Positions 8,739 to 24,848 of a DNA stretch of 45,709 bases are shown here, one piece after another. Positions within the stretch are counted from its first letter, which is position 1. Each line of letters starts with the position of its first letter. The notes under the pieces are model-generated. The model was not told the DNA's origin. It did not search any database and saw only the letters and a program-made list of their open reading frames with translations. Both the position numbers and the translations under genes were made by a program. The DNA comes from Chlorobiota bacterium. Its GTDB lineage: Bacteria; Bacteroidota; Bacteroidia; Bacteroidales; F082. The stretch lies in NCBI GenBank assembly GCA_013151215.1, contig JAADIS010000032.1, positions 1-45,709 on the forward strand, in the 5' to 3' direction.

Positions 8739-9746
8739 TTAGCTTGAGCCTCTTACGATTAATTCCGTCTTGAGCTTCAGTCTGATAGGTTCATAGTCAT
8801 AGGTGCCTTCCTTGATTCTTTTCAGGAGCAGTTCGGCCGACTTTTTACCAAGGTTATATCCAAATTGATCAACGCTCGTGAGTTCCGGCTCACTAATAGT
8901 CGAGCTTCTGCTATTCTCGAACCCAACTACTTTTAAGTCTTCAGGAACTCTGATCCCCAAGTGTTTGGCTACTTTCATCACGCCTATGGCAGTAAGGTCG
9001 TTTACGGCAAAAATGCCATCGGGCCTATCTTGTTTCTTAAGTACGCTTCTTGATATTTTCATGGCCGAATCAATGGTGTCGCAGGCATAAACAAGATCTC
9101 TGTTAAACGTCAAGCCGTTTTTCTCAAGGGCATCCTTATAGCCTTCAAATCTGTTTTTCCCTATTAGCATGTGCTGTGGCGACGAATATATAGCAATACG
9201 TCGGCAACCTCTTGATATTAGATGATTTACTGCGCTGAACGCTCCCGAATAGTCGTCAACGACAACACCGTCGGCATGGAAATCCTCGATTACCCTGTCG
9301 AAAAAAACCATAGGGATCTCGTAGTCAACCATTTGCTGAAAATGCGAATAATCCTGCGTTTCCTTTGAAAACGAAACCAAAACACCATCAACTCGGTTGG
9401 CTATAAGCGTTTGTGTATTAAGTACTTCACGCATATAAGATTCGTTGGATTGAACCACCAAAACATTATAATTGTTCTCGTAAGCAACTTCCTCGATCCC
9501 ATTTATTATTTTTGAAAAGAAGTGGTGTTCGACTTCGGGAACAATTAAACCAATTGTATTTGTTTTACTATGTTTTAAATTAAGCGCAATAAGGTTTGGT
9601 TTATAGCCAAGAAGTTTTGCAAGTTCTTTTACTGCCTGTCTGGTTTTCAAACTAATATCCGGATGGTCTTTAAGTGCCCTGGAAACTGTGGAAACACTTA
9701 TCCCTAGTTTTTCGGCTATATCTTTTATGGTTACCTGACGCTTCAT
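8739..9746 (-). CDS. LacI-family transcriptional regulator, probable regulator of the starch locus
   Basis: The protein has 335 residues, standard for the family. The N-terminal helix-turn-helix and hinge are complete (TIKDIAEKLGISVSTVSRAL, residues 6-25, then the hinge helix near NLIALNLKHSKT). The C-terminal periplasmic-binding-protein-like effector domain includes TIGLIVPEVEHHFFSKIINGI, RVDGVLVSFS, PDGIFAVNDLTAIGVM and EPELTSVDQFGYNLGKKSAELL. It would bind a palindromic operator and respond to a sugar. It is the only regulator next to the GH13/Sus genes, and three matching operator-like sites occur upstream of those units (12900-12913, 15632-15645, 24835-24848). Whether it represses or activates is not shown. 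Confidence 0.92.
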   Translation of the reverse strand: MKRQVTIKDIAEKLGISVSTVSRALKDHPDISLKTRQAVKELAKLLGYKPNLIALNLKHSKTNTIGLIVPEVEHHFFSKIINGIEEVAYENNYNVLVVQSNESYMREVLNTQTLIANRVDGVLVSFSKETQDYSHFQQMVDYEIPMVFFDRVIEDFHADGVVVDDYSGAFSAVNHLISRGCRRIAIYSSPQHMLIGKNRFEGYKDALEKNGLTFNRDLVYACDTIDSAMKISRSVLKKQDRPDGIFAVNDLTAIGVMKVAKHLGIRVPEDLKVVGFENSRSSTISEPELTSVDQFGYNLGKKSAELLLKRIKEGTYDYEPIRLKLKTELIVRGSS

Positions 9747-9995: not shown

Positions 9996-12791
9996 TCAGT
10001 TTATCAAAAGTTTTTTGGAAATCATATTTCCTCCAATCTCAATATTCAGAATGTAAAGTCCTTTATTATAATACTTTGTGTCGAGAGAAAAATTGTTTTC
10101 CCTAGTAAGAAACTTTTTTAATACTTTTCCCTGCATATCATAAAGCTTAATTGAGGCCTCAAAATTTCCCTCATTTGCAATATCGATGTTTACATTCCCG
10201 GAAGCAGGGTTTGGATAAATATTAATATTGTTGCCAGAATGATCTTCCAAGTTGTTGACACCAACAAATTCCGGTATCTGAAGACGCTTGGTCGTATAAA
10301 TATGATATTCTCCTGCTTGAAGGCCGATGTTCTCGCTTGTATTGGTTATGATCAGCGAATCGCCGCTGAAATAGTCGTACCACGTTCCGGCAGTTTGAAA
10401 ACTTGGATTTACATAGCCTTCCTTTACATCAAAGTTTCCAATTATAGTAACATCCATATCATCATTATTAAGATGCATGCTCTTGGCTGCTCCGTTTACG
10501 GTCAAAGTAAAATCGCTCGTTGAGAATGCCGCTTGATTTTCTTTAAGGTCGATAAGTGCTTGATAAACATAAAATAAGCGCCTTCTGTTCAGATCATTAT
10601 AATAAGCCCATTTTACCGGTTTTGGTGATAAACGGCAATTGTCGTTAATAGTTCCGTCCTCGCAAGTATTAATTGAATAATCATATCCAAGTTCACCGAA
10701 CTGCCAAATCATTTTCGGGCCGGGAACAGTAATAAAGAAGGCTGCTGCCATCTCATTTCTTCTTAAAGCAGTATTGAGCTGAGTGATATCGTAATCCACT
10801 CCATTTGAATTTCCATATTGTAGATTTTTATACATAAGCCTTTCCTCGTCGTGGCTTTCCATATAACCAACAAGGTTCGGCTCGCTAAAACCCCTTGATT
10901 TATAGGATATTCCTGAAAAATTGGAATTGTTGACATAGCCCATTGTTGCTTCGTTATAATTATAGTTCATATTTCCCCAGAGCATGATCCCATGATTGGC
11001 CAGCACTTTTTCTTCGGTATTAACCGATAGATGCTCCATGATAACATATGCATCCTGTTTGGTTTCCCAGATACGGTCGCTCATGCGCTCGAGAATACTG
11101 ATGCGTGCTGCATCGTAATTCCAGCCATCGCCCGGCGTGTTTGTAAATCCCTTTGTGAAGTCGAAACGGAAACCATCAATCTTGTATTCCTGTATCCAAT
11201 ATTTGTTCACCCTATCAACAAAATCCTTGGTGTCCTGGCTTTCATGGTTGAAATCGTTGCCCCAGGCAAAAACCGGGTTGGGAGACACGGTATTGAACCA
11301 GGGGTTGTTTGCTGCGGGGCGGTTGTTTTCCGAATCCCAATACATCATTACCATCGGGTTTGTGCCATAAGCATGGTTTAAAACCAAGTCCATAATAACC
11401 GCTATACCCCTTGAATGAGCTTCATCAATAAATTGCTTAAAAGTATTTTTCGGGCCGTAGTATTTATCAACGGCAAAATAATAATTCGGGTTATAACCCC
11501 ATGAATTATTTCCCTCGAACTCATTAACGGGCATCAGTTCAATGGCATTTACACCCAGCCTGTCGAGATAGTTGAGCGTATCTATCAAATCCTCATAAGT
11601 CCTACCGCTCGTAAAGTCGCGCATCAGCAATTCGTAAACAACGAGTTTTTCCTTATCAGGAGACTGGAAATCATTTATTTGCCAATTATAAGGGGTTTGA
11701 GCCGTTTGAAACACGGTGGCAATACCGGAGGTTTTTCCTTCCGGATACGAAATCAAGCCGGGATAATTGGATGAAGGAATATATTTATCGTTCCACGGGT
11801 CGCTGACTTTATCGGCATAAGAATCGCCTACCCTGATGGAACCGTCGATAAAATACTGATAAATATATTCTTTTCCGGCCTCAAGGTTGTTTAACTGTAT
11901 CCAATAACGATTTCCGTCAGAGGATCGTTTCATATAGTTGTCGTCGTTAACCTGCCAATCGGAGAAATCCCCAATGGCGAAAACATAATCTTTTTCCGGA
12001 GCGTAAATGCATAGTATGACGGTATTGTCATCAATATAATTTATACCGTCGACAACTCCTTCCGGTACGTCTTCAATAGTGATCTCCGGGCGGGTATAAT
12101 ATGAAAAAGAATCGGCCACCATCATCTCTCCGCTCTTTGCCACTGCCTTAAACCAATTAGTTCCATTTTCACCAACGTTTAAATCATACTGAAAAACACT
12201 TCCTGTATCGGCATAAACCAGATTATCATTGTTAAACAAGAATGTGGAGTCGGCATCGCTGGAAGAACCTTCAATATAGATGTTGTCGTTTAACTGAACA
12301 ATTAAGGGGGAAGTTTCGGGGAGAGTTATTTGGATTGCCAGTCCCCCCTCCGACAGGTCGTAAAAAATATCGCCTCCTGACTCTGTTTTCCCTGTCAAAC
12401 TTCCATCAGACGAGCGAAAAACAAATGCAAGCTGCAGAATAATTTCCCCGGAAGGAACTCCATAATAGTCTCTTATCGACGGGTCGATGGTAAGTTCCCA
12501 AAGATCGTTGCCGAGACTTGTCATTTTGCAGGACGGGATATTCTCGTTCCATCCGGCTTTTACGTATTTCCAGTCGGTGCCAGAGGTGGAGTTGTTTGTT
12601 ATTACACCCGTATGTGCATAAACGCTACCGGAATAGCCTGCAAGGCCGGCACTCCCCAGACTTGCGTCAAAAGTTACCACTACCTCGTCCTGGTCAACGG
12701 GAAATGGGGGATCAACAGTAATTAGCTGAGCGGTTGATTGCTGTACTGCGAATGATAATATTGCGAATGATAGTAATAGATTCTTAAACAT
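9996..12791 (-). CDS. T9SS-secreted GH13 alpha-amylase/pullulanase-like enzyme
   Basis: The protein has 931 residues. A signal peptide ends near residue 21 (STAQ). Residues about 22-240 are beta-rich, with one or two Ig/CBM-like modules. Residues 250-345 look like an E-set/CBM48 module (FAIGDFSDWQ, YIYQYFIDGSIRVGDSYADK). The GH13 barrel starts at about 383 (VVYELLMRDFT). Its conserved regions are DLVLNH (468-473), nucleophile Asp544 in DGFRFDFTKG, acid/base Glu586 in VIMEHL and Asp648 in MESHDEERL. The last 80 residues form a T9SS type A sorting domain (IYPNPASGNVNI through YNKGLYILNI to KKLLIN). The enzyme should hydrolyse starch-like glucans at or outside the cell surface. A candidate LacI operator lies upstream at 12900-12913. 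Exact bond specificity is unknown. Confidence 0.92.
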   Translation of the reverse strand: MFKNLLLSFAILSFAVQQSTAQLITVDPPFPVDQDEVVVTFDASLGSAGLAGYSGSVYAHTGVITNNSTSGTDWKYVKAGWNENIPSCKMTSLGNDLWELTIDPSIRDYYGVPSGEIILQLAFVFRSSDGSLTGKTESGGDIFYDLSEGGLAIQITLPETSPLIVQLNDNIYIEGSSSDADSTFLFNNDNLVYADTGSVFQYDLNVGENGTNWFKAVAKSGEMMVADSFSYYTRPEITIEDVPEGVVDGINYIDDNTVILCIYAPEKDYVFAIGDFSDWQVNDDNYMKRSSDGNRYWIQLNNLEAGKEYIYQYFIDGSIRVGDSYADKVSDPWNDKYIPSSNYPGLISYPEGKTSGIATVFQTAQTPYNWQINDFQSPDKEKLVVYELLMRDFTSGRTYEDLIDTLNYLDRLGVNAIELMPVNEFEGNNSWGYNPNYYFAVDKYYGPKNTFKQFIDEAHSRGIAVIMDLVLNHAYGTNPMVMMYWDSENNRPAANNPWFNTVSPNPVFAWGNDFNHESQDTKDFVDRVNKYWIQEYKIDGFRFDFTKGFTNTPGDGWNYDAARISILERMSDRIWETKQDAYVIMEHLSVNTEEKVLANHGIMLWGNMNYNYNEATMGYVNNSNFSGISYKSRGFSEPNLVGYMESHDEERLMYKNLQYGNSNGVDYDITQLNTALRRNEMAAAFFITVPGPKMIWQFGELGYDYSINTCEDGTINDNCRLSPKPVKWAYYNDLNRRRLFYVYQALIDLKENQAAFSTSDFTLTVNGAAKSMHLNNDDMDVTIIGNFDVKEGYVNPSFQTAGTWYDYFSGDSLIITNTSENIGLQAGEYHIYTTKRLQIPEFVGVNNLEDHSGNNINIYPNPASGNVNIDIANEGNFEASIKLYDMQGKVLKKFLTRENNFSLDTKYYNKGLYILNIEIGGNMISKKLLIN

Positions 12792-12899: not shown

Positions 12900-12913
12900 A
12901 ACAAACGATTGCA
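12900..12913 (-). promoter_or_regulatory. Candidate LacI-family operator upstream of the T9SS amylase
   Basis: On the minus strand the site reads TGCAATCGTTTGTT. It has the dyad and central CG typical of LacI-family operators. It differs at one base from the site at 15632-15645 and at two from that at 24835-24848. It lies about 82 bases upstream of the proposed -7 box. Confidence 0.55.
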
Positions 12914-13187
12914 CCAGTTGAGTTTATTATCGCCTTCGAACCCTTTATTATTAGTGTTATTAAGCATTTTTTCACTTTAATCCGAAATTTGTATTAAAGC
13001 AGGATTTTGATTTACAATACAGATAAAGAAGAATGGTTTTTTAATAATTGCTTCACATCAAGGTTTTCAAAGTTGTTTTTGCGATAAAGATTTTCTGAAC
13101 AGACTCGTAAGCTATACTTTATGATAATATAATCCGGTCTAGAAATAATGAAATATCGGAACTCACTTTAAGCTAACAAGAAGGTCA

Positions 13188-15254
13188 TTAGATTTTTTTT
13201 ATGGCAATAGAAATATTATTCAGGTCTTCCCAGTTTTTGAACAAGTTTTTTAATTCCGGATATTTATCCGGCTGATAGATCAGATTAGCCGATTGCAAAA
13301 CAAATATAATTTGTAAGTTGCCATTTGAATATTGATAGATAGCATCAACAGCAGCAGTATTATCAGACATGATATACCTACGGTTCTCCGGTATGCCGGC
13401 AATTTCATATCCCTCAGGAATAATAATATTATACCTGAATGTTTGTTTAAACGAATAATTAAACTCGACGGGGAAACTCCTGCTTCCACTTATAAACGGG
13501 TTTTTGTTAATTTCTTGAAATAGAGATGAAGGTTCTATCAGCAATAAAGAATCTAATTTGATAATTGCGTTAACAGGCTTGCAATTAAATGATGCCAAGA
13601 AACTTTTATTCAGATCCGAATAGTTAAATAACTTCAAGTCGCTAATTTCAAAATCGGTATTATCAACTTCAAAGTAATAATCGATGAAAGAGTTATCGTT
13701 AGCAGTAAACCCGTTTCTTGCCATTAAAGCAAAATAGCCATTCAGTTTTAAATTAACGTTATTAACAAGTTGGCCATCTATAATTTCAGAATTAACAACA
13801 ATAGTTTGCGAACTGGGCCTTTTTTCGGATACTTTTACAAGCCTGGGGTTCACCATATCAACAGGGAATATTTTAGTGCCTATTAAATTTATCGGATTGT
13901 TCCTGTAATACTGGTTTTTATTGCTGGCATCAAGCACATAATCAACACCTTGGTATTGTATATAGCAAACTGTTGTATTAAACTGGCCTATAAACGGATA
14001 ATTGGGATTTACCAAGCCATGGCCCCGTGTGCTTGCAAAAGCCGCTTTTGCATTAATTCCAAATTCACGCAAAAGGCGTGTTAGGAAAAGGTTTATTTCG
14101 GCTGAAGATGCTTCTGTTTCATTAATCAACTGATTAAGCTTTCGTTCAGGGATTCGTTTATAAAACCCATTCCAGTTAAACTTGTTTTTTACATAATTGA
14201 AACAAATCTCTATTTTCTCATCCGTTGTGTTTACGTCAGGCAGTCTGTTTTTTATTTCCTCAAACTGTGCTGAGCTCCTAAAAAGTTGCTTTCCGTAGGC
14301 AGGGTCTTTAGTATATTTTTCGGCAAGTTCTTCCCAGGTACTAATAATTGTCTTGTATTTTCCTCTGCGCTTATCATAATATCTGTTCAACTGCAACATC
14401 AATCCGGCCCTGTAATTATCCATACTCGAAATAAATGGCTGCCATTTCATGCCCGGTATGTCCTCAAGGATAAATTTATTTGTTTTAGTTTTATATTTAA
14501 TAAATTGCTGGCTAGTTATACTACTTTCAACAGGTTTCATATCCATTTCCATCAATCCTGTGGTTATAATTGCGTAAGAATCCGTTTCATTATACGCAAA
14601 CCTGAATTCACTGTGCAAACACGGTAGCTTATGTTGAAAATACCATTTTATCGCAAGAAGCGAAAACTCACCTACTTCAGTGATTGTATATTCAATAATA
14701 CTACCTACTTTAACTGCCGGTATGGAGAAAACAATTTTGTTGTTTTTAATGAGTTCACTGGCATCCAACAAATGAATATCTTCTTTTTGAAGATCCAACT
14801 TTGTGATACTACCGTCTTCCTCAAGGAAATACGAACTGGCTTTGATTCTAAAAACACCGCTTCCTTTACCAGTAACCCAAAACGAACCATATTTGCCGCT
14901 CATGTTTTCCAGCATATCCGACGAATTTGATTTCTTAACGGAATGGAACCCATATTCCACATTGGCTTGTGAGAGACCCTTCTTGTTAAGTATCAACATT
15001 CTTCGGTGCATAACTGTCCTAGTTTGAAAAAAACTACCATAAACACCTGAGAATTCCTGTCCGTAATCACAAAGTATAACGGCTTCGGCATTTTTGTCGA
15101 ATTCAGGGTGGTCATTGATGTCGAACACAAAATCGGATGCTGTGAGCTCACCGAACTTCATCGGTGGCGGGTCTTTTTTTGCAGTTGCATAAGTAGCAGA
15201 CAACAAGAGCATTACAATTAAAATGGCGGCTTCTGGATTAATATAATTTTTCAT
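13188..15254 (-). CDS. DUF3857 / transglutaminase-like exported protein, catalytically degenerate
   Basis: The protein has 688 residues with a signal peptide ending near residue 25 (ATYATAKK). The N-terminal half resembles DUF3857 (MHRRMLILNKKGLSQANVEY, VGSIIEYTITEVGEF). A central transglutaminase-like core follows, with EICFNYVKNKFNWNGFYK, ASSAEINLFLTRLLREFGI and DYVLDASN. The position of the nucleophilic Cys is Ser/Ala and the usual His position (FNTTVCYIQ) is Thr, leaving only the Asp. That is common in this Bacteroidota family and argues for a structural or binding role. The C-terminal beta-rich part resembles DUF3858. It lies inside the starch locus but shows no carbohydrate-related motif. 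Confidence 0.8.
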   Translation of the reverse strand: MKNYINPEAAILIVMLLLSATYATAKKDPPPMKFGELTASDFVFDINDHPEFDKNAEAVILCDYGQEFSGVYGSFFQTRTVMHRRMLILNKKGLSQANVEYGFHSVKKSNSSDMLENMSGKYGSFWVTGKGSGVFRIKASSYFLEEDGSITKLDLQKEDIHLLDASELIKNNKIVFSIPAVKVGSIIEYTITEVGEFSLLAIKWYFQHKLPCLHSEFRFAYNETDSYAIITTGLMEMDMKPVESSITSQQFIKYKTKTNKFILEDIPGMKWQPFISSMDNYRAGLMLQLNRYYDKRRGKYKTIISTWEELAEKYTKDPAYGKQLFRSSAQFEEIKNRLPDVNTTDEKIEICFNYVKNKFNWNGFYKRIPERKLNQLINETEASSAEINLFLTRLLREFGINAKAAFASTRGHGLVNPNYPFIGQFNTTVCYIQYQGVDYVLDASNKNQYYRNNPINLIGTKIFPVDMVNPRLVKVSEKRPSSQTIVVNSEIIDGQLVNNVNLKLNGYFALMARNGFTANDNSFIDYYFEVDNTDFEISDLKLFNYSDLNKSFLASFNCKPVNAIIKLDSLLLIEPSSLFQEINKNPFISGSRSFPVEFNYSFKQTFRYNIIIPEGYEIAGIPENRRYIMSDNTAAVDAIYQYSNGNLQIIFVLQSANLIYQPDKYPELKNLFKNWEDLNNISIAIKKI

Positions 15255-15267
15255 AGCAAGTTTTTTT

Positions 15268-15275
15268 CAAATATA
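15268..15275 (-). promoter_or_regulatory. -7 promoter element of the DUF3857 gene
   Basis: TATATTTG on the minus strand matches TAnnTTTG and lies 13 bases before the ATG at 15254. No TTG occurs at the usual -33 distance. Confidence 0.4.
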
Positions 15276-15390
15276 TATAAATATTCAAAATAATATCGTT
15301 TTCAAACAAACTTAAATGTTTATCAGGCAGAATTTCGATGCACAGGCAAGAAGACAAAAGAACAGTTTGGGCATTTAAGATTGAGCTCCA

Positions 15391-15430
15391 TATAAATAAA
15401 AAGACCCTCCCGGATTAAACCGGAGGGGCC
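15391..15430 (-). terminator. Rho-independent terminator of the degraded gene
   Basis: On the minus strand a GC-rich stem (CCCCTCCGG, loop TTTAAT, CCGGGAGGG; one bulge) is followed by TCTTTTTATTTATA. It lies directly after the stop codon at 15444-15446 of the pseudogene remnant. That is good evidence that the remnant was once a real minus-strand gene. Confidence 0.75.
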
Positions 15431-15631
15431 CTTGAATAGAGAATTATGTAAATAGAAGATTACCGATACCTTCAACATAATAAGGGCTTCCTGCTAGCTC
15501 AAAATCACCTAGAAGCGAGTTGTCGCTACAGTTATTTCCGTTTCCGTACCATACTGTTTGATACTCGCGTCCTACTCAAAGTCGGAATCGTTATTGCCAA
15601 GGCTCCATCCGATTGCACGAACATTATCAGG

Positions 15632-15645
15632 TGCAAACGTTTGTT
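15632..15645 (+). promoter_or_regulatory. Candidate LacI-family operator upstream of the CBM/amylase unit
   Basis: TGCAAACGTTTGTT contains the perfect palindrome CAAACGTTTG. It matches the sites upstream of the T9SS amylase (13 of 14 bases) and of susC (11 of 14). It lies about 87 bases upstream of the -7 box at 15733 and 140 bases before the ATG, inside the pseudogene remnant. Confidence 0.55.
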
Positions 15646-15708
15646 TACTGTACTTTCCAAAGAAAACAATATTTTAGATATTATCTGAGATTTGCGAAAG
15701 GGCTATAA

Positions 15709-15740
15709 TTTGAGATTTCTCATTAAATTGAGTATCTTTG
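15709..15740 (+). promoter_or_regulatory. Bacteroidota-type promoter of the secreted CBM-protein gene
   Basis: TTTG (15709-15712), a 20-base spacer and TATCTTTG (15733-15740) form an almost ideal Bacteroidota promoter. The ATG follows 45 bases later. Confidence 0.75.
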
Positions 15741-15785
15741 TAAGCAAACAAAAAATATTTTTATTTACTAACAAAAAATTTTAAT

Positions 15786-16763
15786 ATGAAAAAATTTACA
15801 TTTCGTTTTTTTGCAATTGCTGCCATAGTCATGATTGGCTCGTTGGCTTTTGCTCAAACGCAGTTTAACGCAACATTCAATGTTGACATGACCAATGCCG
15901 ACTCCTTTGACCCGGCAGTTGATGAAGTATGGATGTCAGGCAGTTTTGCCGGCTGGGCGGAACCCGGTCAGGACGAAGCCTACAAAATGGCGCCTGCCGA
16001 AGCAGGCTCTTCTGTTTTTACCTTAACGGTCGCCATCGACTCGGGTGAGGTACAGTACAAGTATTTCAGGACTATAGACGGTGCCACGGGATGGTCCAAC
16101 GGTGAATGGGACGGCGATCCCAACCGCAAGGTTTATCTGACAAAAGAAACAACCTATGACAATGTTTGGGCCAACAAACCACAGGATATTACTTTTAACG
16201 TGGACATGACCAATGCCGATCCTTTTGACCCTGCAACCGATGCAGTATTTATAGGAGGAAGCCTTGCCAACAACTGGGAAACGCCTGGTTCCCTGAGCCC
16301 ATATATGATGACCCCTACGGAAGCTGACGAAAACATCTATACGATAACTTTATTGTTGACCCCCGGCGATTACCAGTTTAAATATTTCAGGATTATCAAC
16401 GGCGAAGCCAGTTGGGATAATGGCGAGTGGGACGGAGACCCCAATCGCGACATAACAGTTGACACTCTTGCCGCTACCGTGGATGATGTATGGGCCGATA
16501 TCAATGCCGGTATCTTTGACAGACATGCTACATTTACCTACAGCATGTATCCAAACCCGGTAAACGACAATCTTAACCTAAGTAATATCTCAGGTGTTAA
16601 CGAGATTGCTATTTATGATATTGCCGGAAAATTAGTTAAAAGAATTGATGTTCAGCTGGCTAATGATATAACTATTGGCGTTTCCGACTTAAATACCGGA
16701 ATTTACCTCATAAATGTTACTAATCAAAAAGGTATTCAAACCAGTAAGTTTATAAAAAACTAA
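15786..16763 (+). CDS. T9SS-secreted protein with two tandem putative starch-binding modules
   Basis: The protein has 325 residues. A signal peptide ends near residue 24 (LAFAQ). Two homologous modules follow (about residues 28-130 and 135-240). Each has FNVDMTNADxFDPAxDxV, an aromatic W-containing loop, a YKYFR/FKYFR strand and NGEWDGDPNR, a pattern like carbohydrate-binding beta-sandwiches (E-set/CBM20-like). The modules are similar even at DNA level, suggesting a fairly recent duplication. Residues about 250-325 are a T9SS type A sorting domain (SMYPNPVNDNLNL, LNTGIYLINV, SKFIKN). There is no catalytic domain. It probably tethers starch at the surface or assists the GH13 enzymes. A terminator follows directly, then the GH13 gene. 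Confidence 0.82.
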   Translation: MKKFTFRFFAIAAIVMIGSLAFAQTQFNATFNVDMTNADSFDPAVDEVWMSGSFAGWAEPGQDEAYKMAPAEAGSSVFTLTVAIDSGEVQYKYFRTIDGATGWSNGEWDGDPNRKVYLTKETTYDNVWANKPQDITFNVDMTNADPFDPATDAVFIGGSLANNWETPGSLSPYMMTPTEADENIYTITLLLTPGDYQFKYFRIINGEASWDNGEWDGDPNRDITVDTLAATVDDVWADINAGIFDRHATFTYSMYPNPVNDNLNLSNISGVNEIAIYDIAGKLVKRIDVQLANDITIGVSDLNTGIYLINVTNQKGIQTSKFIKN

Positions 16764-16784
16764 AGAAATAACATTTCAACCTTG

Positions 16785-16813
16785 GAGCCGACAGTTCACT
16801 GCCGGCTTTTTTT
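16785..16813 (+). terminator. Intrinsic terminator between the CBM gene and the GH13 gene
   Basis: The stem AGCCGaCAG-TTCA-CTGcCGGCT (16786-16807) is followed by seven T. It ends 21 bases before the ATG of the downstream amylase. It would end or attenuate transcription, giving more CBM mRNA than amylase mRNA. Confidence 0.8.
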
Positions 16814-16833
16814 ATAAGAATTAAATTTGCATT

Positions 16834-18669
16834 ATGGTAAAATTTAGATTTTTTATATTAATGCTATCGCTGTTCAGCTTAAATGCAAGCGCACAGCATA
16901 TTGCAACTGCCGCCCCCCCTGCCTGGGCCCCGGAGGTGGTTTGGTATCAAATATTCGTCGAACGCTTCAATAATGGCGACCGTACCAACGATCCCACAGC
17001 AGAAAGCATATATGCACGGAGTGATTATTATAAGGTTCCGGCAAACTGGACTGTTACCCCATGGGCCGGCAATTGGTATAAAGAAGACGACTGGGCCGAA
17101 AACCTTGAAGGTGATTTCTATTCTAAATTGCAACTGCGTAGATATGGCGGCGATTTACAGGGCGTTATGGACAAATTGGATTATCTTGAAGAACTTGGGG
17201 TTACTGCCATATATTTTAATCCTTTGAACGATGCACCTTCGCTTCATAAATTTGATGCAAGAAACTGGAGGCATATCGATATTAATTTCGGTCCTGACCC
17301 TGAAGGTGATATCAGGATTATTTCAGAGGAAGATCCGTCTGATCCGTCAACATGGAAATGGACCTCGGCCGACAAGCTTTTTCTCAAGCTTGTTGACGAG
17401 ATGCATAAAAGAGACATGAAAGTCATAGTCGATTATTCATGGAATCACACAGGCGTAGAATTTTGGGCGATGAAAGACATAATGGAAAACCAGCAAAAAT
17501 CAAAGTTTGTTGATTGGTACGACATAGAATCATTTGATGATTCCGGCACTCCGGAAAACGAATTTAAATATCACGGCTGGTTTGATTTAGAAAGCCTCCC
17601 GGAGATTAAAAAAGTAAATATTACAACAACAAGACGACCGGGCCACCCCTACGAAGGTGATATTAACAAAGCTGCCAAGAAGCACATTTTTGCCGTCTCG
17701 AAACGCTGGCTGTCGCCTGACGGGGATACGGACAAGGGAATTGATGGCTATCGCCTGGATGTTGCCGACCATATAGGCCTGGGGTTTTGGCGCGACTACA
17801 GAAAATTTGTGAAATCGGTTAAACCCGATGCGTATCTAATAGGTGAGATATGGTGGGAATCATGGCCCGACAAACTTATGAACCCGGCACCTTATATGCA
17901 AGGTGATATTTTTGATGCCGTGATGTTCTATCATCTTTATCGTTCGGCGCGTTATTTCTTTGCAAATACCGAACTAAAACTTAATGCACAACAACTAACT
18001 GACAGTTTGAACTCTCAGTGGAACAGATTGCCCAAGCCTATGCGCTATTCCATGATGAACACCGCAGCCACCCATGATTCTCCGCGGCTTCTGACATCTT
18101 TTTACAACAGAGGCCTTTATAAATATTGGGCCAAGCCAAACGACGACCCTGCTTACAAAACCGGCAAACCCGACAAAGAAACATATAAAAGGCTTAAATT
18201 ATATTTGATACATCAGTTTAGCATACCGGGGGCGCCACAAATATGGAACGGGGATGAAATGGGCATGTGGGGCGCCGACGATCCTGATTGCCGTAAGCCT
18301 TTATGGTGGGGCGATATGCATTTTGACGACGAGTTCAGGAACAATTTCCAGCCGGGTGAAAAGACATTTGACAAAGTAGGGTTTAATCAGGAACTCTTCG
18401 ATTTCTATAAAAAAATTATTTCCATAAGGAAGCAAAACAAGGTTTTGAGCACAGGAGATATTGAATTTGTTTTTGCCAAGGATTTCAAACTCGCCTATAA
18501 ACGTTTCGACGACGAAAGCGAAATACTGATCTTGTTCAATTTGGATACTGACGGATTTGATTACCCCCTGGAAAAAGACAAAACTTATACCGACTTGCTC
18601 AGCGGAAAGAAATACAAGGATATCATTGAAATAAAAGGGCTTGATTCTGCAATGTTAAGGCGCGAATAA
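16834..18669 (+). CDS. Periplasmic GH13 alpha-amylase family enzyme (neopullulanase/cyclomaltodextrinase-like)
   Basis: The protein has 611 residues with a signal peptide ending near residue 21 (NASAQ) and no lipobox or T9SS domain, so a periplasmic location is likely. GH13 conserved regions are VIVDYSWNH (197-205), nucleophile Asp309 in DGYRLDVADH, acid/base Glu338 in LIGEIWWESW and Asp415 in NTAATHDSPRLL. Inserted loops include GDLQGVMDKLDYLEELGV. The C-terminal beta domain begins near VLSTGDIEFVF. Overall size and motifs recall SusA-type neopullulanases, which cleave imported malto-oligosaccharides. It follows the CBM gene on the same strand after a terminator, so it depends on read-through or on its own weak promoter (a TAAATTTG box lies just before the ATG). 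Confidence 0.9.
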   Translation: MVKFRFFILMLSLFSLNASAQHIATAAPPAWAPEVVWYQIFVERFNNGDRTNDPTAESIYARSDYYKVPANWTVTPWAGNWYKEDDWAENLEGDFYSKLQLRRYGGDLQGVMDKLDYLEELGVTAIYFNPLNDAPSLHKFDARNWRHIDINFGPDPEGDIRIISEEDPSDPSTWKWTSADKLFLKLVDEMHKRDMKVIVDYSWNHTGVEFWAMKDIMENQQKSKFVDWYDIESFDDSGTPENEFKYHGWFDLESLPEIKKVNITTTRRPGHPYEGDINKAAKKHIFAVSKRWLSPDGDTDKGIDGYRLDVADHIGLGFWRDYRKFVKSVKPDAYLIGEIWWESWPDKLMNPAPYMQGDIFDAVMFYHLYRSARYFFANTELKLNAQQLTDSLNSQWNRLPKPMRYSMMNTAATHDSPRLLTSFYNRGLYKYWAKPNDDPAYKTGKPDKETYKRLKLYLIHQFSIPGAPQIWNGDEMGMWGADDPDCRKPLWWGDMHFDDEFRNNFQPGEKTFDKVGFNQELFDFYKKIISIRKQNKVLSTGDIEFVFAKDFKLAYKRFDDESEILILFNLDTDGFDYPLEKDKTYTDLLSGKKYKDIIEIKGLDSAMLRRE

Positions 18670-18686
18670 GCGATTCTCCGAAAAAT

Positions 18687-18725
18687 AAAAAAGCCCGGCA
18701 TGCCTTTAGCATACCGGGCTTTTGT
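18687..18725. terminator. Strong bidirectional terminator between convergent starch genes
   Basis: AAAAGCCCGG-c-ATGC, loop CTTTA, GCAT-a-CCGGGCTTTT forms a long stem with an A-tract on one side and a T-tract on the other. It serves both the GH13 gene and the convergent susC-D-E operon. Confidence 0.88.
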
Positions 18726-18737
18726 TTTTATATAATT

Positions 18738-19853
18738 TTAATTCTTGATCAAGTCATATCTAGGGACCTCCTGGCTCATATCCAGCACGAAAGTATAGTT
18801 TCCGGCACCTTCGGGAATGGGGATGTCAGATCCGCCATAAGACAGTTTTTTACCGTCTTGGGGATCCATGAGGCCAAGGTTGATGTCCCAGCCGTCGTTG
18901 GCCCTGAACTTAAACCTTAAATCGCCACCATCCTGGGACTCAGTAACATCGATAGTTGCCGAAAGAACCCCGTTTAGGTCGTCCCATTCCAGGTTTACAT
19001 CTTCGCTCCAATCACCGTTAAGTATCCCTGAACCTATAATGCCCCAGCTTTGGGCTTCAAACTCCCAGGATAAGTTTAAGGTGTCGCATATAAGCTTATA
19101 GAACCCGAAGTCAGGAACGCTAAGGTTTCCTGCACCCGGATCGGTGTCAAGCAGCCCAAGGCTTGTTCCGGCACCAAAGTTCGTGTGGTTCCAGTCGGGG
19201 GCCGAAGTAAACTTGAATTCATAAGTTCCTCCATCAGGAAAATAAACAAAGCCTGTATAAACGCCATCGTTGTCAACCGACCATGCATTAGGTGCTTCTC
19301 CCGGGCTCCATCCCTGATAATCGCCCGGAATCCACAACCGCGGGGTTTCGGCAGGAGGAGGCGGTGCAGCCGTGGCATAGGTTGTGAAAGTAGTGATTAT
19401 TGTTTTAGAAGTATCGTTGATATAATCAGCCCCGCTAATTCCGCTGACAACCCTAATGGCAATGTTAGCTGTCGAGTCGGGTTCAACACCCAACTGCAGC
19501 AATTTAGTGTTCATGTCGTAAACAATTATGCTAAATGATGTCTCGTTCGAGCTTTGCAATTCCTTGGCATGAGCAAAATTACTGTCGGCGATATCTATTT
19601 GCAATGAATAGGTTGGCAAAGGCAGCTCGGCTCCATCTGAAATTGAATATGAGGCCGCATTCCATGTATAGCTTATCAAGCTGGCCGAATCCTCCTCGGT
19701 AAGCACAAAAACACTTCCATCCTCCGGGCCGGTTATCGAAGCCGGCGCGGATTTGCTAATATTGAGAACAGGGTCTTTCTTATCTTTCTTACATGAGCTC
19801 AGCAGGATGCCGGAGCCAATTAAAAACAAAAGTATTAAAGTTATTTTCTTCAT
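18738..19853 (-). CDS. SusE/SusF-like surface starch-binding lipoprotein
   Basis: The protein has 371 residues. A lipoprotein signal ends at Cys21 (ILLSSC), followed by charged KKDKKDP, similar to surface-export signals. Residues about 30-165 resemble the N-terminal SusE domain (a Trp-containing ITYTW-like strand, Ig-like). Two further beta-sandwich modules follow at about 170-265 (LWIPGDYQGWSPGEAPNAW, WNHTNFGAGTSLG) and 270-371 (WGIIGSGILNGDWSEDVNL, LRFKFRANDGWDINLG). These are typical of SusE/F starch-binding domains, whose aromatic residues stack on glucose rings. It is the third gene behind susC and susD, with a 19-base gap, and ends at a strong shared terminator. No catalytic function is expected. 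Confidence 0.85.
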   Translation of the reverse strand: MKKITLILLFLIGSGILLSSCKKDKKDPVLNISKSAPASITGPEDGSVFVLTEEDSASLISYTWNAASYSISDGAELPLPTYSLQIDIADSNFAHAKELQSSNETSFSIIVYDMNTKLLQLGVEPDSTANIAIRVVSGISGADYINDTSKTIITTFTTYATAAPPPPAETPRLWIPGDYQGWSPGEAPNAWSVDNDGVYTGFVYFPDGGTYEFKFTSAPDWNHTNFGAGTSLGLLDTDPGAGNLSVPDFGFYKLICDTLNLSWEFEAQSWGIIGSGILNGDWSEDVNLEWDDLNGVLSATIDVTESQDGGDLRFKFRANDGWDINLGLMDPQDGKKLSYGGSDIPIPEGAGNYTFVLDMSQEVPRYDLIKN

Positions 19854-19872
19854 GATATCTTATTTTATAACA

Positions 19873-21462
19873 TTAATAATTAGGATTTTGAGTAAGGTTG
19901 GGGTTGCCGTTCACATCAGCAGCAGGCAGAGGGAACAGATTATACTTGGCATCCGTTGACCTTCCTTCTTTGGAATGTCCCTTCCACGACCAGACATAAT
20001 CACCACCCGTAAATTTATTAAAGCGGATGAGGTCGGTACGGCGATGTCCTTCCCAACAAAGCTCTCGCGCCCTTTCGTCGAGGATGAAATCGAGAGTCAG
20101 GTCGGAATCGCTGATCTGCGATGCCCCTGCCCTTGTCCGCAACATATTCACATATTCAGTGGCAGTGCTGAGGTTTCCGCCCCCACCGCGAACTACGGCC
20201 TCGGCATACATTAAATAAACATCCGCAAGGCGGAACATGGGAAAGTCAGTATCGGGGAAGGTAAGGCTAAAGCCCGGAGTTCCGTTTCCTTGTTCGTCAT
20301 ACGACATATTGCGGAATTTTGTTACTGCATAACCGTTTTGAAAATCGCTGATATTGTCTATATCTATTGATTGCCCGTCAGTAAAAAACATTTTACGGTT
20401 ATCGTTATCAGTGAATTTCTCCACTAGTTGCCTGGTAGTGCGGGTTCCGCCCCAGCCACCATCTATTCCGTAGTCGCCGGGGACCATGTCGCCACCAACC
20501 GAGGCATGGATGATAAAAGTCGTGCCACCCCATGTCTGGGTTTTCTCCCCATCGTACCTGATCGCGAAAATAATCTCCTGCATAGTCTGTGCATCGGCAT
20601 CATTGTCGGCCCAGAACAATTGTTGGAAAGTAGGCGCCAATGAATAACCGGCATTAATTATTTTATCGCAATAATTAATGCATTCCGAATATTTGTTGGC
20701 TCCAACATAGACTTCCGAGTTCAAATAAAGCTTGGCTAGCAACATCCAGGCTGCTGCCTTGTCGGCACGGCCATATTCATTTTGACGAGGCTCCATCAAC
20801 AAATTCCCGATATCGAGAAGTTCCGATTCTATAAAAGCGTAAATCTCTTCTTTGCTTTTTTGCGGAGGGAAAAAATCCCCTATGGGATCATCTTCGGTAA
20901 CGAAAGGAACACTTCCGAACATATCAAGCGCATGCCAATAGCTCAGTGCGCGCAACCATCTGGCTTCGGCCCGATAATAAGCCACTTTGTTCTTCCACTC
21001 ATCACTTAGGCCTCGCTCGCTTAGCTTAGTGTCCGTGGTTTGACGGAGGAACTCGTTCACAAGCGATATCTGATAATAAATACGATAATACATGGCGGCT
21101 ATAAAAGTATCCCCATCTCCCCATTCCTGATAGTGGAAATCTTTTATGGTAGCATCGTCCCATCCGATAACGGCCTCATCAGTAGTTAGTTCCTGATGAT
21201 ACCAATATTGACGTAGATATTGGCTAAAACCACCATCGATACCACTTATATCGGGCATTCCGTCTTGCCCTTGTTGTCCGCCAACTGCAAGGCCGGCATA
21301 GCATTTGGCCATGAACTGGGTATATGATTCCGGGTTGTCGAAAACCGTAGCCGAAGTAATCTCGTCAGGGTCGATAGGTTTCGTGTCCAGAATTTTGCTA
21401 CAGGAGCTTAGTACCATAAAGAGCCCTAAAGCAATCGTTGTTATATATAAAAACTTTTTCAT
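19873..21462 (-). CDS. susD: SusD/RagB-family outer-membrane lipoprotein
   Basis: The protein has 529 residues. The lipoprotein signal ends at Cys21 (MVLSSC), followed by SKILDTKP, the usual SusD N-terminus. Family signatures include an alpha-helical TPR-like N-terminal half (YRAEARWLRALSYWHALDMFG, YAFIESELLDIGNLL, AAWMLLAKLYLNSEVY). The C-terminal part has MFRLADVYLMYAEAVVRGGG, YVNMLRTRAGA and FILDERARELCWEGHRRTDL, ending PLPAADVNGNPNLTQNPNY. SusD is the lid of the SusC channel and binds the oligosaccharide. It lies 18 bases downstream of the susC gene, in the same operon. The neighbouring GH13 and SusE-like genes point to an alpha-glucan ligand. Confidence 0.96.
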   Translation of the reverse strand: MKKFLYITTIALGLFMVLSSCSKILDTKPIDPDEITSATVFDNPESYTQFMAKCYAGLAVGGQQGQDGMPDISGIDGGFSQYLRQYWYHQELTTDEAVIGWDDATIKDFHYQEWGDGDTFIAAMYYRIYYQISLVNEFLRQTTDTKLSERGLSDEWKNKVAYYRAEARWLRALSYWHALDMFGSVPFVTEDDPIGDFFPPQKSKEEIYAFIESELLDIGNLLMEPRQNEYGRADKAAAWMLLAKLYLNSEVYVGANKYSECINYCDKIINAGYSLAPTFQQLFWADNDADAQTMQEIIFAIRYDGEKTQTWGGTTFIIHASVGGDMVPGDYGIDGGWGGTRTTRQLVEKFTDNDNRKMFFTDGQSIDIDNISDFQNGYAVTKFRNMSYDEQGNGTPGFSLTFPDTDFPMFRLADVYLMYAEAVVRGGGGNLSTATEYVNMLRTRAGASQISDSDLTLDFILDERARELCWEGHRRTDLIRFNKFTGGDYVWSWKGHSKEGRSTDAKYNLFPLPAADVNGNPNLTQNPNY

Positions 21463-21480
21463 GATTTCTTGTTTTTTAAA

Positions 21481-24400
21481 TTAGAACATTAAGTTAACGC
21501 CGAACATCCAAACCCTCGACCTGGGATATACGCTGTTGTCGATCCCAAGGTTTACCTCGGGGTCCAGGCCTTCGTAATTCGTTATTACAAACGCATTGTT
21601 CACAGATACCGACAACACCATCTTTAGACGGTTATGTACCAGATTGTTAAAAGTATAGTTTAAGGATATCTCGTCCATTCGGAAGAAAGAAGCATTCTGG
21701 ACATAGTAGTCGGAGTGGTATTGGGCTGTCTGGAAACCGGTATTTGAAATTGCCGAGACAACATTGCTGATGTATGGGCCTTCGGGTCGGTACATCCTGC
21801 TATACCAGCCGTTTTCCGATTCTACGTTATTGTACATATAATTTCCGAAGTTTGCCCTTCCTGAGAAATAAAATGTCCAGTTCTTATAGCTGAGATTTGA
21901 TGAAATGCCAAAATAAAGGTCGGCATTGGGGTCGTGATAATAATATTTGTCAGCGGTAGTTATTTCACCATCCCCGTTGCGGTCAACATAAAGGCCTTCG
22001 ATGGGCTTGCCGTTCTCGTCATAAACCTGTTCGTAAACATAAAAAGAGTTTCTTGCCTGGCCAACGGCTTGCTCCTGAATCAGGTTGCCCACACCTCCTG
22101 CTATACCACCGGTTGGAATACTGGCGCCATCATAAAGCTCGGTAATTTCGTTTTGGTTATATGTTGCATTGAAGCCCAGTTCCCAAAACATGTCCTTCGT
22201 CGATAATATCTTGCCGTTAACTGCAAATTCCACACCTTGGTTTTGGAGTTTGCCGATATTGCGGTTCACATAGTTGCTCAGGTTGGAGCCTGCGACTGCC
22301 GGCACCCAGCTAAGCAGGTCTTTGGTGTTTCTTTGGTAAATGTCGATAGTACCATAAACCCTGTCTTTGAGGAATCCATAATCCAGGCCGATATTCCATG
22401 TCGTTGTTTCTTCCCACTTTAAATTCTGATTATATCCTTCAGGGCGAAGAGTATAATTGTAGTTGTTCCCGAACGGGTACATGGCATACTGGTTTCCATA
22501 AGTATATCTGCCCATATAATCATAATATCCGCCAATGTCCTGCTGTCCGGTAATTCCCCAGCCTATCCTTAGCTTCAACAATGAAATTGTTTTGGAATCT
22601 TTTAAGAATGATTCCTCGTTTATTTTCCAGCCCAGTGCAACTGCGGGGAAAATCCCCCAGTGGTTGTCGGCGCCGAACCTTGAAGTACCATCGGCACGAA
22701 CAGTGGCAGTTAACAAAAACCGATCGTCAAAAGTATAGTTCAACCTTCCGAAATACGACAGTAAATAATACTCGCCCTTGTCGATAACGGTATCCCTGAT
22801 ATACTCCTGCCCCGAACCTTCTTCCAGGTTGGGTATATTACTGTTGTTGTTGGTTGAGCTATTATAGAAATGCTGCAAGGAAGAACCGGCCATTAAGCTG
22901 AAATTGCTTTTGATGCCATCAATATCTTTTATGTAATTCAAGTAAAAGTCAACAAGCTCATTATCGTTACGATTGCTATATGCGTTATCGGTGCCGCCAC
23001 CTTGGGCAGCGTTATACGACCATGAAGCGTAAGGAGGAATATAAACCGTGCCATTTCCCCTTGTCTTATCAAGGCTTAAATTCAAGTTGGCATGTAGTTC
23101 AGGAAGAAAATGCATTTGATAATCCAGTTGAAGGTTACCATAAACCCTGTTAACATTTGATTTGTCGTTGGTCAAGCCAATATATGCCATCGGGTTGGTG
23201 GTTCCCTGGGTAACAGGGTCGCCATTGTTTTGCCTCCATGCCCAGTATCCGCCATAAGAACCGTCGTTGCTGTTAACGGGCTTTGTAGGATCCATTTGTG
23301 TAGACGCGTTAATGGCCCCCCTGTTTGCAAATTGATTGTTTATGAACGAGGTGCTGATATTAAAATTGATTTTTAAATGATCCTTGAACAAGGAAGGGTT
23401 TAATGATGCAGCAAACGAGGTCCTTTGGAAATTTGAGGTTTCCATTATCCCGTCCTGGCCTGTATAACCCAGCGAGAAACGATAAGGAACGTTATTGAAG
23501 GCTCCTGTCGCACTAAGTGAATGATCCATGGCAAAAGCATTGCGATATATCTCATCCTGCCAGTTTGTGTTATAAATTGTTTGATTATAACCAGTCCTGT
23601 CATCAGGAAGGGATGAATAAGGAACCTCATTGCCTTGCGGGTCGGTCCATATTCCCAACATGTCAACCCGCTTGGGGAAACGTGTAGTTATTTTATCAAC
23701 AAACTCCGAGGAAGACAAGATGCCCACTGTCCTGGGAACTTCGTAATATGAGAATTTCCCTGAGTAGTTAATCTTCAACGGCTGGTTTTGCTTGCCTCTT
23801 TTGGTGGTGATCAAAATAACACCGTTAGATGCCCTGGAACCATAAATAGCCGTTGCCGAAGCATCTTTTAAAATCGTGAAGGTTTCTATATCGTTTGGGT
23901 TTATGCTGTTTAACGGATTACGGCTACCGCCGGGGACATCGTTGCTCAGCGGAACCCCGTCAACAACGATAAGAGGGCTGTTGGAAGCGCTTAAGGAAGA
24001 CCCGCCCCTAATTAAAATATTTGATGAGCTTCCGGGGGCGCCGCTGGAACTGGTGATCTGGACCCCGGCAACTTTGCCTGCGATCAGGCTCATCGGCGTC
24101 AGTACAGTACCTTTGTTGAAGCTGCCTTGGTCGATAGCTGTAACAGCACCTGTAACATCCTTTTTCTTTGCTACGCCATAACCAATTACTACAACTCCTT
24201 CGAGCGATTGCGCAGACGATTGCATAGAAATGTCAAGTTTTGTATCTGGTTGAACGATACGCTCTTGCGTTGTGTAACCAACATAAGAGAAAACTAATAT
24301 CCAATCCTTTTCAACCTTGATGCTAAACTTGCCGTCCAAGTCGGTAGTAGTTCCTTGTGTGGTCCCCTTGATAACAATTGTTGCCCCGGGCAAGGGTAAG

Positions 24401-24519
24401 CCGTCGGCAGCATCTGTTACAATACCGGTAACAGCACCTCCTTGCGCATAAGTGCTTAGAGTACCGCTTAACAATAATACAAGGAAAATCAGTGATTTAA
24501 AAAATAATTTTTTTCCCAT
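21481..24519 (-). CDS. susC: SusC-family TonB-dependent oligosaccharide transporter
   Basis: The protein has 1012 residues. A signal peptide ends near residue 26 (STYAQ). A carboxypeptidase-like regulatory domain (GIVTDAADGLPLPGATIVIKG, residues about 31-110) is followed by the SusC plug with VVVIGYGVAKKKDVTGAV, LIAGKVAGVQITSSSGAPGS, NILIRGGSSL, LIVVDGVPLSND and IYGSRASNGVILITTKRGK. A 22-strand barrel follows and ends with Phe (MFGVNLMF), the signal for barrel insertion. With SusD it should import malto-oligosaccharides. It is the first gene of susC-susD-susE. The -7 box at 24585-24592 and the candidate LacI operator at 24835-24848 lie upstream. The substrate is inferred from the neighbours. 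Confidence 0.96.
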   Translation of the reverse strand: MGKKLFFKSLIFLVLLLSGTLSTYAQGGAVTGIVTDAADGLPLPGATIVIKGTTQGTTTDLDGKFSIKVEKDWILVFSYVGYTTQERIVQPDTKLDISMQSSAQSLEGVVVIGYGVAKKKDVTGAVTAIDQGSFNKGTVLTPMSLIAGKVAGVQITSSSGAPGSSSNILIRGGSSLSASNSPLIVVDGVPLSNDVPGGSRNPLNSINPNDIETFTILKDASATAIYGSRASNGVILITTKRGKQNQPLKINYSGKFSYYEVPRTVGILSSSEFVDKITTRFPKRVDMLGIWTDPQGNEVPYSSLPDDRTGYNQTIYNTNWQDEIYRNAFAMDHSLSATGAFNNVPYRFSLGYTGQDGIMETSNFQRTSFAASLNPSLFKDHLKINFNISTSFINNQFANRGAINASTQMDPTKPVNSNDGSYGGYWAWRQNNGDPVTQGTTNPMAYIGLTNDKSNVNRVYGNLQLDYQMHFLPELHANLNLSLDKTRGNGTVYIPPYASWSYNAAQGGGTDNAYSNRNDNELVDFYLNYIKDIDGIKSNFSLMAGSSLQHFYNSSTNNNSNIPNLEEGSGQEYIRDTVIDKGEYYLLSYFGRLNYTFDDRFLLTATVRADGTSRFGADNHWGIFPAVALGWKINEESFLKDSKTISLLKLRIGWGITGQQDIGGYYDYMGRYTYGNQYAMYPFGNNYNYTLRPEGYNQNLKWEETTTWNIGLDYGFLKDRVYGTIDIYQRNTKDLLSWVPAVAGSNLSNYVNRNIGKLQNQGVEFAVNGKILSTKDMFWELGFNATYNQNEITELYDGASIPTGGIAGGVGNLIQEQAVGQARNSFYVYEQVYDENGKPIEGLYVDRNGDGEITTADKYYYHDPNADLYFGISSNLSYKNWTFYFSGRANFGNYMYNNVESENGWYSRMYRPEGPYISNVVSAISNTGFQTAQYHSDYYVQNASFFRMDEISLNYTFNNLVHNRLKMVLSVSVNNAFVITNYEGLDPEVNLGIDNSVYPRSRVWMFGVNLMF

Positions 24520-24584
24520 AAGACAAATTATTTGTTGTGTGTTTACACCATGAAATTAAAAATATAAAGTGTTAATTATCAGGT

Positions 24585-24615
24585 CAAAAATAATATTAAT
24601 ATTTAGTTTTTTTAA
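24585..24615 (-). promoter_or_regulatory. Probable promoter of the susCDE operon
   Basis: On the minus strand TATTTTTG (24585-24592) matches TAnnTTTG. A TTA rather than TTG (24613-24615) lies 20 bases upstream of it. The palindrome TTACGTAA at 24619-24626 sits immediately upstream and may be a further regulator site. The leader is about 60 bases long. Confidence 0.5.
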
Positions 24616-24834
24616 CATTTACGTAATATTATTGATCCTGGTTGATGTTGAGGTCGTAGAATTTTTGCGGCAACAAGCCCCCTATTTATCGAATTTCTTG
24701 GCAGGGATATGTTAATTTAAACATCAAAGAAAATAATCACAAGCATATTGTTCTCATCCACAGTACATTATATGTATCGTGCTTAATGGCGGTGTTTTAT
24801 CGGCGCTTAGATTATTGCTATTGAAGCCTGAAAT

Positions 24835-24848
24835 TTCAAACGATTGCA
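24835..24848 (-). promoter_or_regulatory. Candidate LacI-family operator upstream of susC
   Basis: On the minus strand it reads TGCAATCGTTTGAA. It shares the core TGCAATCGTTTG exactly with the site upstream of the T9SS amylase. It is about 243 bases upstream of the susC -7 box, far for a simple repressor site. Confidence 0.45.

Follow-up and report, generated by a model that had tools for sequence, protein, structure and literature searches.

A candidate LacI-family carbon regulon reaching beyond a starch locus in a family of Bacteroidales

LacI-family proteins serve as global regulators of carbon metabolism in several bacterial lineages. According to the sections of the source papers drawn on here, the LacI-type proteins AraQ and MalR1 of Bifidobacterium breve bind maltodextrin, glycogen and central genes, including gap, eno, pyk and pfl; most of the central genes are tabulated as activated, and the sites lie at set helical distances from the start site (PMC6882875). 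CcpA of Firmicutes is likewise a global LacI-family carbon regulator (PMC4052901), and its activating position is remarked on in the Bifidobacterium study (PMC6882875). In Proteobacteria, glycolysis and gluconeogenesis are likewise under global control by LacI-family members, in the FruR/Cra regulon and the predicted PckR, GapR and GluR regulons. Cra and PckR act as repressors of the first pathway and activators of the second, and the mode of PckR was, as here, predicted from site position (PMC4052901). We analyzed a 45,709-bp contig (JAADIS010000032.1; hereafter the window) from assembly GCA_013151215.1, a member of the Bacteroidales family F082, in which three near-identical sites lie beside a lacI gene and upstream of starch genes. 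We show that the abundance of the underlying palindrome, TGCAAWCGWTTGCA, follows the presence of a lacI ortholog. The sites are probably operators of the adjoining LacI protein, which would then be a global carbon regulator rather than a local regulator of starch use.

Described regulators of carbon use in Bacteroidota differ from such a system. In the parts of the literature cited here, SusR of Bacteroides thetaiotaomicron likewise governs starch use through susCDE-type genes but, unlike the lacI product, is a membrane protein with a periplasmic sensor, direct-repeat motifs and a local regulon; the same source lists LacI regulons for uronates in Bacteroides, starch under SusR, and the CRP-family protein BT4338 for multiple sugars (PMC3878776). 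For sus loci of B. fragilis and B. uniformis that lack SusR, a predicted LacI-type gene is mentioned together with an MFS transporter, a likeness in gene content to the present system (PMC11633381). AraQ and MalR1 are two paralogs from Actinobacteria, whereas here one regulator would act at Bacteroidota promoters and on outer-membrane Sus genes. In the portions of the open-licence literature searched, we found no description of a LacI-family global regulator of glycolysis in Bacteroidota.

The three sites of the window are exact and lie upstream of separate starch units. The original prediction placed three 14-mers before a type IX secretion system (T9SS) amylase, a carbohydrate-binding module (CBM)/GH13 pair and susCDE, with a LacI gene adjoining, and each of these statements was confirmed. 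Primary promoters of Bacteroidota carry TAnnTTTG at -7, joined in B. fragilis by TTTG near -33, a motif that was not found in F. johnsoniae, as far as the cited part of the source covers them (PMC7366714). The relevant features are as follows.

8739..9746, minus strand: lacI, a 335-aa LacI-family regulator (Pfam LacI and Peripla_BP_3), predicted binder of the sites
9996..12791, minus strand: T9SS-secreted GH13 amylase-like protein (Pfam Alpha-amylase and Por_Secre_tail), target 1
12900..12913, minus strand: candidate operator 1, TGCAATCGTTTGTT, centre 116 bp before the amylase ATG
15632..15645, plus strand: candidate operator 2, TGCAAACGTTTGTT, centre 95 bp before the -7 box of the CBM-GH13 pair
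15733..15740, plus strand: -7 box TATCTTTG of the CBM-GH13 unit, 95-bp spacing class
15786..16763, plus strand: T9SS protein with an AMPK1_CBM starch/glycogen-binding module (Pfam), target 2
16834..18669, plus strand: GH13 amylase/maltodextrin glucosidase-like protein (profile matches), second gene of target 2
18738..19853, minus strand: SusE-like starch-binding lipoprotein (Pfam SusE)
19873..21462, minus strand: SusD-like lipoprotein (Pfam SusD_RagB; NF033071 SusD match below cut-off)
21481..24519, minus strand: SusC/RagA TonB-linked receptor (TIGR04056 over cut-off), target 3 and first gene of susCDE
24585..24592, minus strand: putative -7 box TATTTTTG of susCDE, 250 bp from candidate operator 3
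24835..24848, minus strand: candidate operator 3, TGCAATCGTTTGAA, centre 323 bp before the annotated susC ATG

These sites are far more frequent than expected by chance. The exact 12-base core TGCAAWCGTTTG occurs three times in the window (0.013 expected) and eight times in the host genome (about 1.0 expected in 3,718,370 bases on 154 contigs), while the same motif read backwards, our control in all motif counts, has no exact match genome-wide. The window makes up 1.2 % of the genome, and the probability that it holds at least three of the eight sites is about 1e-4. With up to two mismatches, chance alone would give a mean of 3.9 matches in the window, and the genome-wide excess becomes modest (217 strand hits versus 149); therefore, near-perfect sites alone are informative. 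Candidate operator 1 has changed by one base relative to the near relative L036, against 18 changes in the adjoining 60 bases (counted on the alignment), and candidate operator 3 is retained upstream of susC in the near relative L115. Among amylase-like rows from relatives, 11 of 20 have the full site, although several of these loci were chosen for carrying one. Among CBM-like rows, the full palindrome lies 102-103 bp before a -7 box at two distinct loci, L047 (the same as L101) and L049; a half-site lies at 104 bp in L050/L242, and the remaining rows have no full site.

The candidate regulon extends well beyond the starch locus in the host genome. The shorter core GCAAWCGWTTG gives 24 strand hits (1 in the control). 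They fall at 20 places; C73 and C82 carry matching copies at contig ends, and counting these as a single locus leaves 19. Fourteen of the 19 precede a gene start and five lie inside coding sequence without a nearby start. Of these 14, twelve stand before genes of carbohydrate or central carbon metabolism. The starch and glycogen targets are the three units of the window, a glycogen debranching enzyme (C122) and a divergent pair of GH13 genes (C6). Glycolysis and related functions are represented by 6-phosphofructokinase (PFK; C5), glyceraldehyde-3-phosphate dehydrogenase (GAPDH; C97, where the site itself is within the divergent gene), pyruvate phosphate dikinase (PPDK; C131) and membrane pyrophosphatase (C21). 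Other carbon targets comprise a sugar-type MFS transporter (C109), a phosphate butyryltransferase gene with butyrate kinase next in line (C13) and a 2-oxoacid:acceptor oxidoreductase (C128). The remaining two sites stand before another MFS gene (C54) and a member of the LemA family (C29), either of which may or may not belong to the regulon. Sites in the coding sequences of PMM, RND-pump, RNase E/G-like and PNPase genes (C68, C38, C121 and C153, named by eye) were dropped as chance, as were the contig-end sites on C73 and C82, which are probably one locus. Few such sites thus exist in the genome, and most stand before carbohydrate or central-carbon genes, so the random scatter named at the outset as a possible refutation is not what the genome scan found. 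Starch use as the scope of the regulon holds in part: starch genes are included, but the label is too narrow, because most targets lie outside the locus and include glycolysis and fermentation genes.

The same targets recur among relatives. We surveyed 100 regions around exact sites from the host (G000) and 14 relatives, with 110 site places including the host loci; proteins with a start near a site were clustered, and families were named by profile search of members. The survey omits two places of G048, three of G096 and those of G070, G095 and G098, such that the site list is a lower bound. GAPDH is a target in 11 genomes, a GH13 family in nine and a SusA-like GH13 family in eight; membrane pyrophosphatase and a divergent bifunctional-nuclease-domain gene are each found in eight, and the T9SS amylase in eight, window included. 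SusC recurs in seven genomes, including the window and two other families, PPDK and the MFS transporter in five each, and the debranching enzyme and indolepyruvate oxidoreductase in four each. Clusters unrelated to carbon also recur (DegT-type, named by eye, LemA and uncharacterised groups). Forty further regions, mostly picked by spacing class and hence not used as evidence on spacing, added enolase, a PDH-E1-like protein, methylglyoxal synthase, phosphoenolpyruvate carboxykinase (PEPCK), an aminotransferase and isobutyryl-CoA mutase. Among 12 family genomes (G000 included), 11 have a site before gap, ten of these in a coding position. All four codons of the GAPDH site are invariant in ten genomes, compared with four of 56 other codons, these genomes having been chosen for carrying the exact site. 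Sites stand before many operons of several carbon pathways, the distribution that characterizes a global LacI-type regulon.

The sites have the shape of LacI-family operators, as had been predicted from their central CG dyad. Over 122 distinct sites they form a palindrome with a central CG step; the search itself fixed the core and demanded one complete TG/CA flank, which leaves only the second flank free.

The adjoining protein is a LacI-family member without a named equivalog. The lacI product is the sole PF00356 protein found in the host genome (assembly 98.6 % complete). It scores 51 bits against PF00356 (cut-off 27) and 113 bits against PF13377 (cut-off 26.5), and the LacI helix-turn-helix (residues 6-51) and sugar-binding domains (63-335) fill its whole length. 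It has neither the membrane-spanning character nor the periplasmic sensor of SusR-like proteins. The CcpA equivalog TIGR01481 (187.9 bits versus a cut-off of 442.35) and the Cra/FruR equivalog NF008452 (120 versus 385) do not claim it, and all 18 NCBIfam LacI-type models that it matched (CytR, RbsR, PurR, GalR, MalI and others) are under cut-off, with CytR scoring best (223 versus 436). The closest solved structure by sequence is the CcpA entry 1rzr. A scan of named genomes returned 27 lacI-homolog loci, of which 26 are in metagenome-assembled genomes labelled Bacteroidetes, Bacteroidales or relatives (two Chlorobiota), and one, a distant homolog, is in Lachnospiraceae. Orthologs are widespread in the host's family.

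Sites and lacI orthologs occur together. Within the 401,707 bases of the 27 lacI-homolog loci, there are 19 strand hits to the core TGCAAWCGWTTG, at 16 places in 14 loci; the average for 200 column-permuted motifs was 0.125, and the highest count among them was 3. The expectation that orthologous loci keep the sites therefore stands for many of them, although 13 of the 27 have no exact site in the DNA examined. We compared sites with LacI matches in 100 relatives, taking 1e-90 or better as a strong match; a palindromic site contributes two counts to the averages that follow. Family genomes with a strong match (n=52) average 9.5 sites (control 0.7), compared with 3.6 (control 0.1) in those with no or a weak match (n=8; Mann-Whitney p 5e-5). 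Outside the family, the averages are 7.8 sites (control 0.6) in 17 genomes with a match and 2.4 (control 0.9) in 23 without (p 0.002). Genus g14 has no LacI match in any of 80 genomes, using the same query that gave 52 strong matches in 60 family genomes. Pairs of operator and promoter number 30 in 75 g14 genomes (0.40 each; control 6, 0.08) and 312 in 74 other family genomes (4.22 each; control 33, 0.45), an excess about twelve-fold lower in g14 than elsewhere in the family.

Distances between site and promoter cluster near whole helical turns. Distances run from the C of the central CG, taken as the operator centre, to the T that opens TAnnTTTG. The original prediction gave 80-240 bases for the window sites, which is roughly right: 95 bp for the CBM gene and 250 bp for susC, while the amylase has no perfect TAnnTTTG, with one-mismatch boxes only, the one nearest the ATG being 89 bp from the operator. 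Across genomes, distances cluster at 52, 62-64, 95, 104-106 and 178 bp; values of 52, 62.5, 95, 105 and 178 correspond to 4.95, 5.95, 9.05, 10.0 and 16.95 turns of 10.5 bp. GH13 promoters have 95-96 bp in all nine genomes (one with a second box at 79), the amylase 95 bp in five of seven regions (97 and 99 in the other two), PPDK 62-63 bp in five of five, and the debranching enzyme and four smaller groups 104-106 bp. The eight SusA-like promoters include distances of 94, 95, 95, 106, 108 and 121 bp. GAPDH has 177-178 bp in ten of 11 genomes (152 in G014), but this spacing was set aside as evidence of phasing, because the interval is partly coding and its length would be held anyway.

Wider searches recover the same series. 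The composite CAAWCGWTTG-N-TAnnTTTG with gaps of 80-110 bp gave at least 150 rows in 149 family genomes; among the 91 listed rows from previously unused genomes, 40 fall at 94-96 or 104-106, which are six of 31 positions. With gaps of 36-66 bp in 61 relatives, discovery genomes included, rows with the TTGC half-site fall at 61-63 bp in 38 of 77 cases and at 52 in six, compared with eight of 71 at 61-63 for rows without it, an internal control. For loci picked by site alone with boxes at 40-130 bp, 27 of 41 distinct boxes are on the series, which occupies 13 of 91 positions. R(10.5) for the 41 boxes is 0.49 (simulated p 5e-5); with the median taken per cluster and genus (28) it is 0.61, and per cluster (22) it is 0.59 (p 4e-4). 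The strongest argument from spacing is that a given gene occupies different positions of the series from genus to genus: 52, 62 or 95 bp for PFK, and 62, 95 or 106 bp for SusA-like genes. "Activation or looping" had been proposed from distance; what supports activation is the clustered, near-helical spacing across genomes, not distance alone.

A second class of sites lies over the -33 element. With gaps of 5-35 bp, one peak lies at 19 bp and another, which comes from genera g4, g6, g8, g9, g12 and g13, at 27-28 bp. The 14 family rows at 27-28 bp with the TTGC half-site precede an aminotransferase family (8), isobutyryl-CoA mutase (IcmF; 2), a MarR-type regulator (2), a CBM48 protein (1) and PEPCK (1), where one member per family was scanned and others were matched by sequence. 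Indolepyruvate oxidoreductase sites lie at 19-21 bp (g11). The gene lacI is itself preceded by a site in three relatives examined, at 18 bp in G016, at 26 bp in G080 and, in the third, at 102 bp. In G004, from the window's own genus, a site lies 28 bp from the box of a biopterin-dependent aromatic amino acid hydroxylase. Most promoters of this class have TTTG or TTG at the -33 place, often as part of the operator. As the operator covers the -33 element, bound protein and polymerase should exclude each other.

The two classes also separate when loci are chosen by gene. Upstream regions of PFK and PEPCK were retrieved by protein search, 30 loci each, a few with little upstream sequence. Of the 30 PFK loci, 13 carry a core with 0 or 1 mismatch, each of them 52, 62-64 or 95 bp from a -7 box (one with a second box at 47; two with poor flanks). 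For PEPCK, seven of 30 loci have a site with a box, all at 22-28 bp, and three others have a site but lack a perfect box. G034 supplies one further PEPCK site with a box, at 27 bp, such that eight of eight are at 22-28 bp. Naming PFK as "PPi-type" was rejected, as the PPi models score below cut-off and the ATP-dependent subfamily model NF002872 above it. Seven PFK upstream regions (L311, L313, L314, L315, L319, L321 and L322; genera g4, g6, g9 and g13) have CAACCG in place of CAAWCG at 62-64 bp, a lineage-specific variant.

These positions fit a CcpA/Cra-like regulator that likely activates when bound in phase and blocks when it overlaps the promoter. At in-phase positions, the LacI protein would share a helix face with RNA polymerase and contact it, and could thereby activate starch import and glycolysis. 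Sites 18-28 bp from the -7 box, which occur mostly in other genera, would block polymerase at PEPCK, aminotransferase, isobutyryl-CoA mutase, indolepyruvate oxidoreductase and, in two of three cases, lacI. The sugar-loaded protein may be the DNA-binding form; if so, the presence of sugar would induce sugar use and shut down the use of other carbon. Site positions suggest a polarity opposite to that of Cra and PckR, in another lineage. In its broadest form, for which we see little better than even chances, the proposal is that carbon use throughout a whole Bacteroidales family is under a single master switch, this LacI protein, and that operator position determines its output: about 5, 6, 9, 10 or 17 turns for on (starch import, glycogen breakdown and glycolysis), over -33 for off (gluconeogenesis and amino-acid carbon), and spacing that evolves by whole-turn jumps and thus keeps the helix face.

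Other explanations account for part of the data. A local LacI regulator of starch use only, with a MalR/SusR-like regulon in a polysaccharide utilization locus and matches elsewhere as noise, would suit three sites that flank starch units, the adjoining lacI and the frequency of starch and glycogen genes among all targets. It is very unlikely, given that PPDK, PFK, GAPDH and membrane pyrophosphatase sites keep conserved spacing in more than one genus and that the backwards control has no exact match in the genome. Most characterised LacI-family proteins are repressors, which counts towards a pure repressor that is bound in its apo form and released by maltodextrin or a sugar phosphate, acting by looping or hindrance, as Cra represses glycolysis. 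Looping would need helical phasing too, and repression would suit the pyrophosphatase sites, which lie 31-33 bp before the ATG. We nevertheless consider this reading unlikely, as in-series sites at 52-178 bp from the -7 box are far for simple blocking, an argument that does not reach looping, and blocking positions (18-28 bp) hold a different set of genes, PEPCK included. Binding of the sites by a different regulator would explain why genomes without a LacI match, g14 included, remain above control. This is highly improbable: no second PF00356 gene was found in the genome, sites lie beside lacI orthologs and before lacI in three relatives, and they are fewer where LacI is missing. Four of the 30 g14 pairs were examined; none precedes a recognisable starch or glycolysis gene, and three have no TG or CA flanks.

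Several observations weigh against a position-dependent LacI activator. A period of 8.4-8.5 bp fits slightly better than 10.5 in each test, and the helical reading is therefore not unique; 14 of the 41 boxes miss the positions of the series (e.g., 69, 78, 82, 89, 97, 108, 113, 121 and 127), and p-values are overstated because orthologous promoters are not independent. Within the window, two of three sites have no clean phasing, and the clean architecture is found at one site only. MFS sites have no -7 box. The pyrophosphatase sites differ from those of other targets in keeping a constant distance of 31-33 bp to the ATG, an interval that holds no -7 box (loci L001, L105, L117, L123, L151, L164, L168, L177 and L182, with two genes in G048). 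A weak -33 element as a mark of activator dependence was rejected (TTG in 19 of 74 promoters versus 33 of 130 controls). The host's own PEPCK has a one-mismatch core only, 13 bp before a -7 box, and a site with a box is found at just 13 of 30 PFK and 7 of 30 PEPCK loci. Four of the 13 PFK and seven of the eight PEPCK promoters were already among earlier composite-search rows, nine PFK promoters being unseen; what is new about the earlier-seen promoters is thus mainly gene identity. The fall in g14 is partly compositional, since the backwards control drops too (6 in 75 versus 33 in 74 genomes), and g14 is still above control with 30 pairs versus 6; five g14 genomes hold 13 sites versus 0 in the control. 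Three further LacI-negative genomes are above control, namely G085 (7:0), G082 (4:0) and G092 (8:2). Missed genes, split contigs or another regulator are possible sources of the sites in these three genomes and in g14.

If this activator reading is true, largely uncultured Bacteroidales gain a readable carbon switch, in which the distance from site to -7 box would predict from raw genomes which genes turn on and which turn off. The natural series of spacings would also be suited to testing helical phasing at Bacteroidota promoters.

Further elements surround the sites in the window. A DUF3857/DUF3858 protein (13188-15254; both matches just under cut-off) lies between the amylase and the CBM gene, and in the near relative L036 an additional stretch of about 1.5 kb is present where window position 14370 would be. 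Directly upstream of the susC operator, at 24936-25226, is an element of about 290 bp with 24-bp terminal inverted repeats (96 % complementary). The genome carries another copy, 92 % identical, ahead of PEPCK (L324 443-718), as expected of a miniature inverted-repeat transposable element. Inside the window copy is a 25-bp inverted repeat (84 %) with a 16-nt loop, at 25026-25091.

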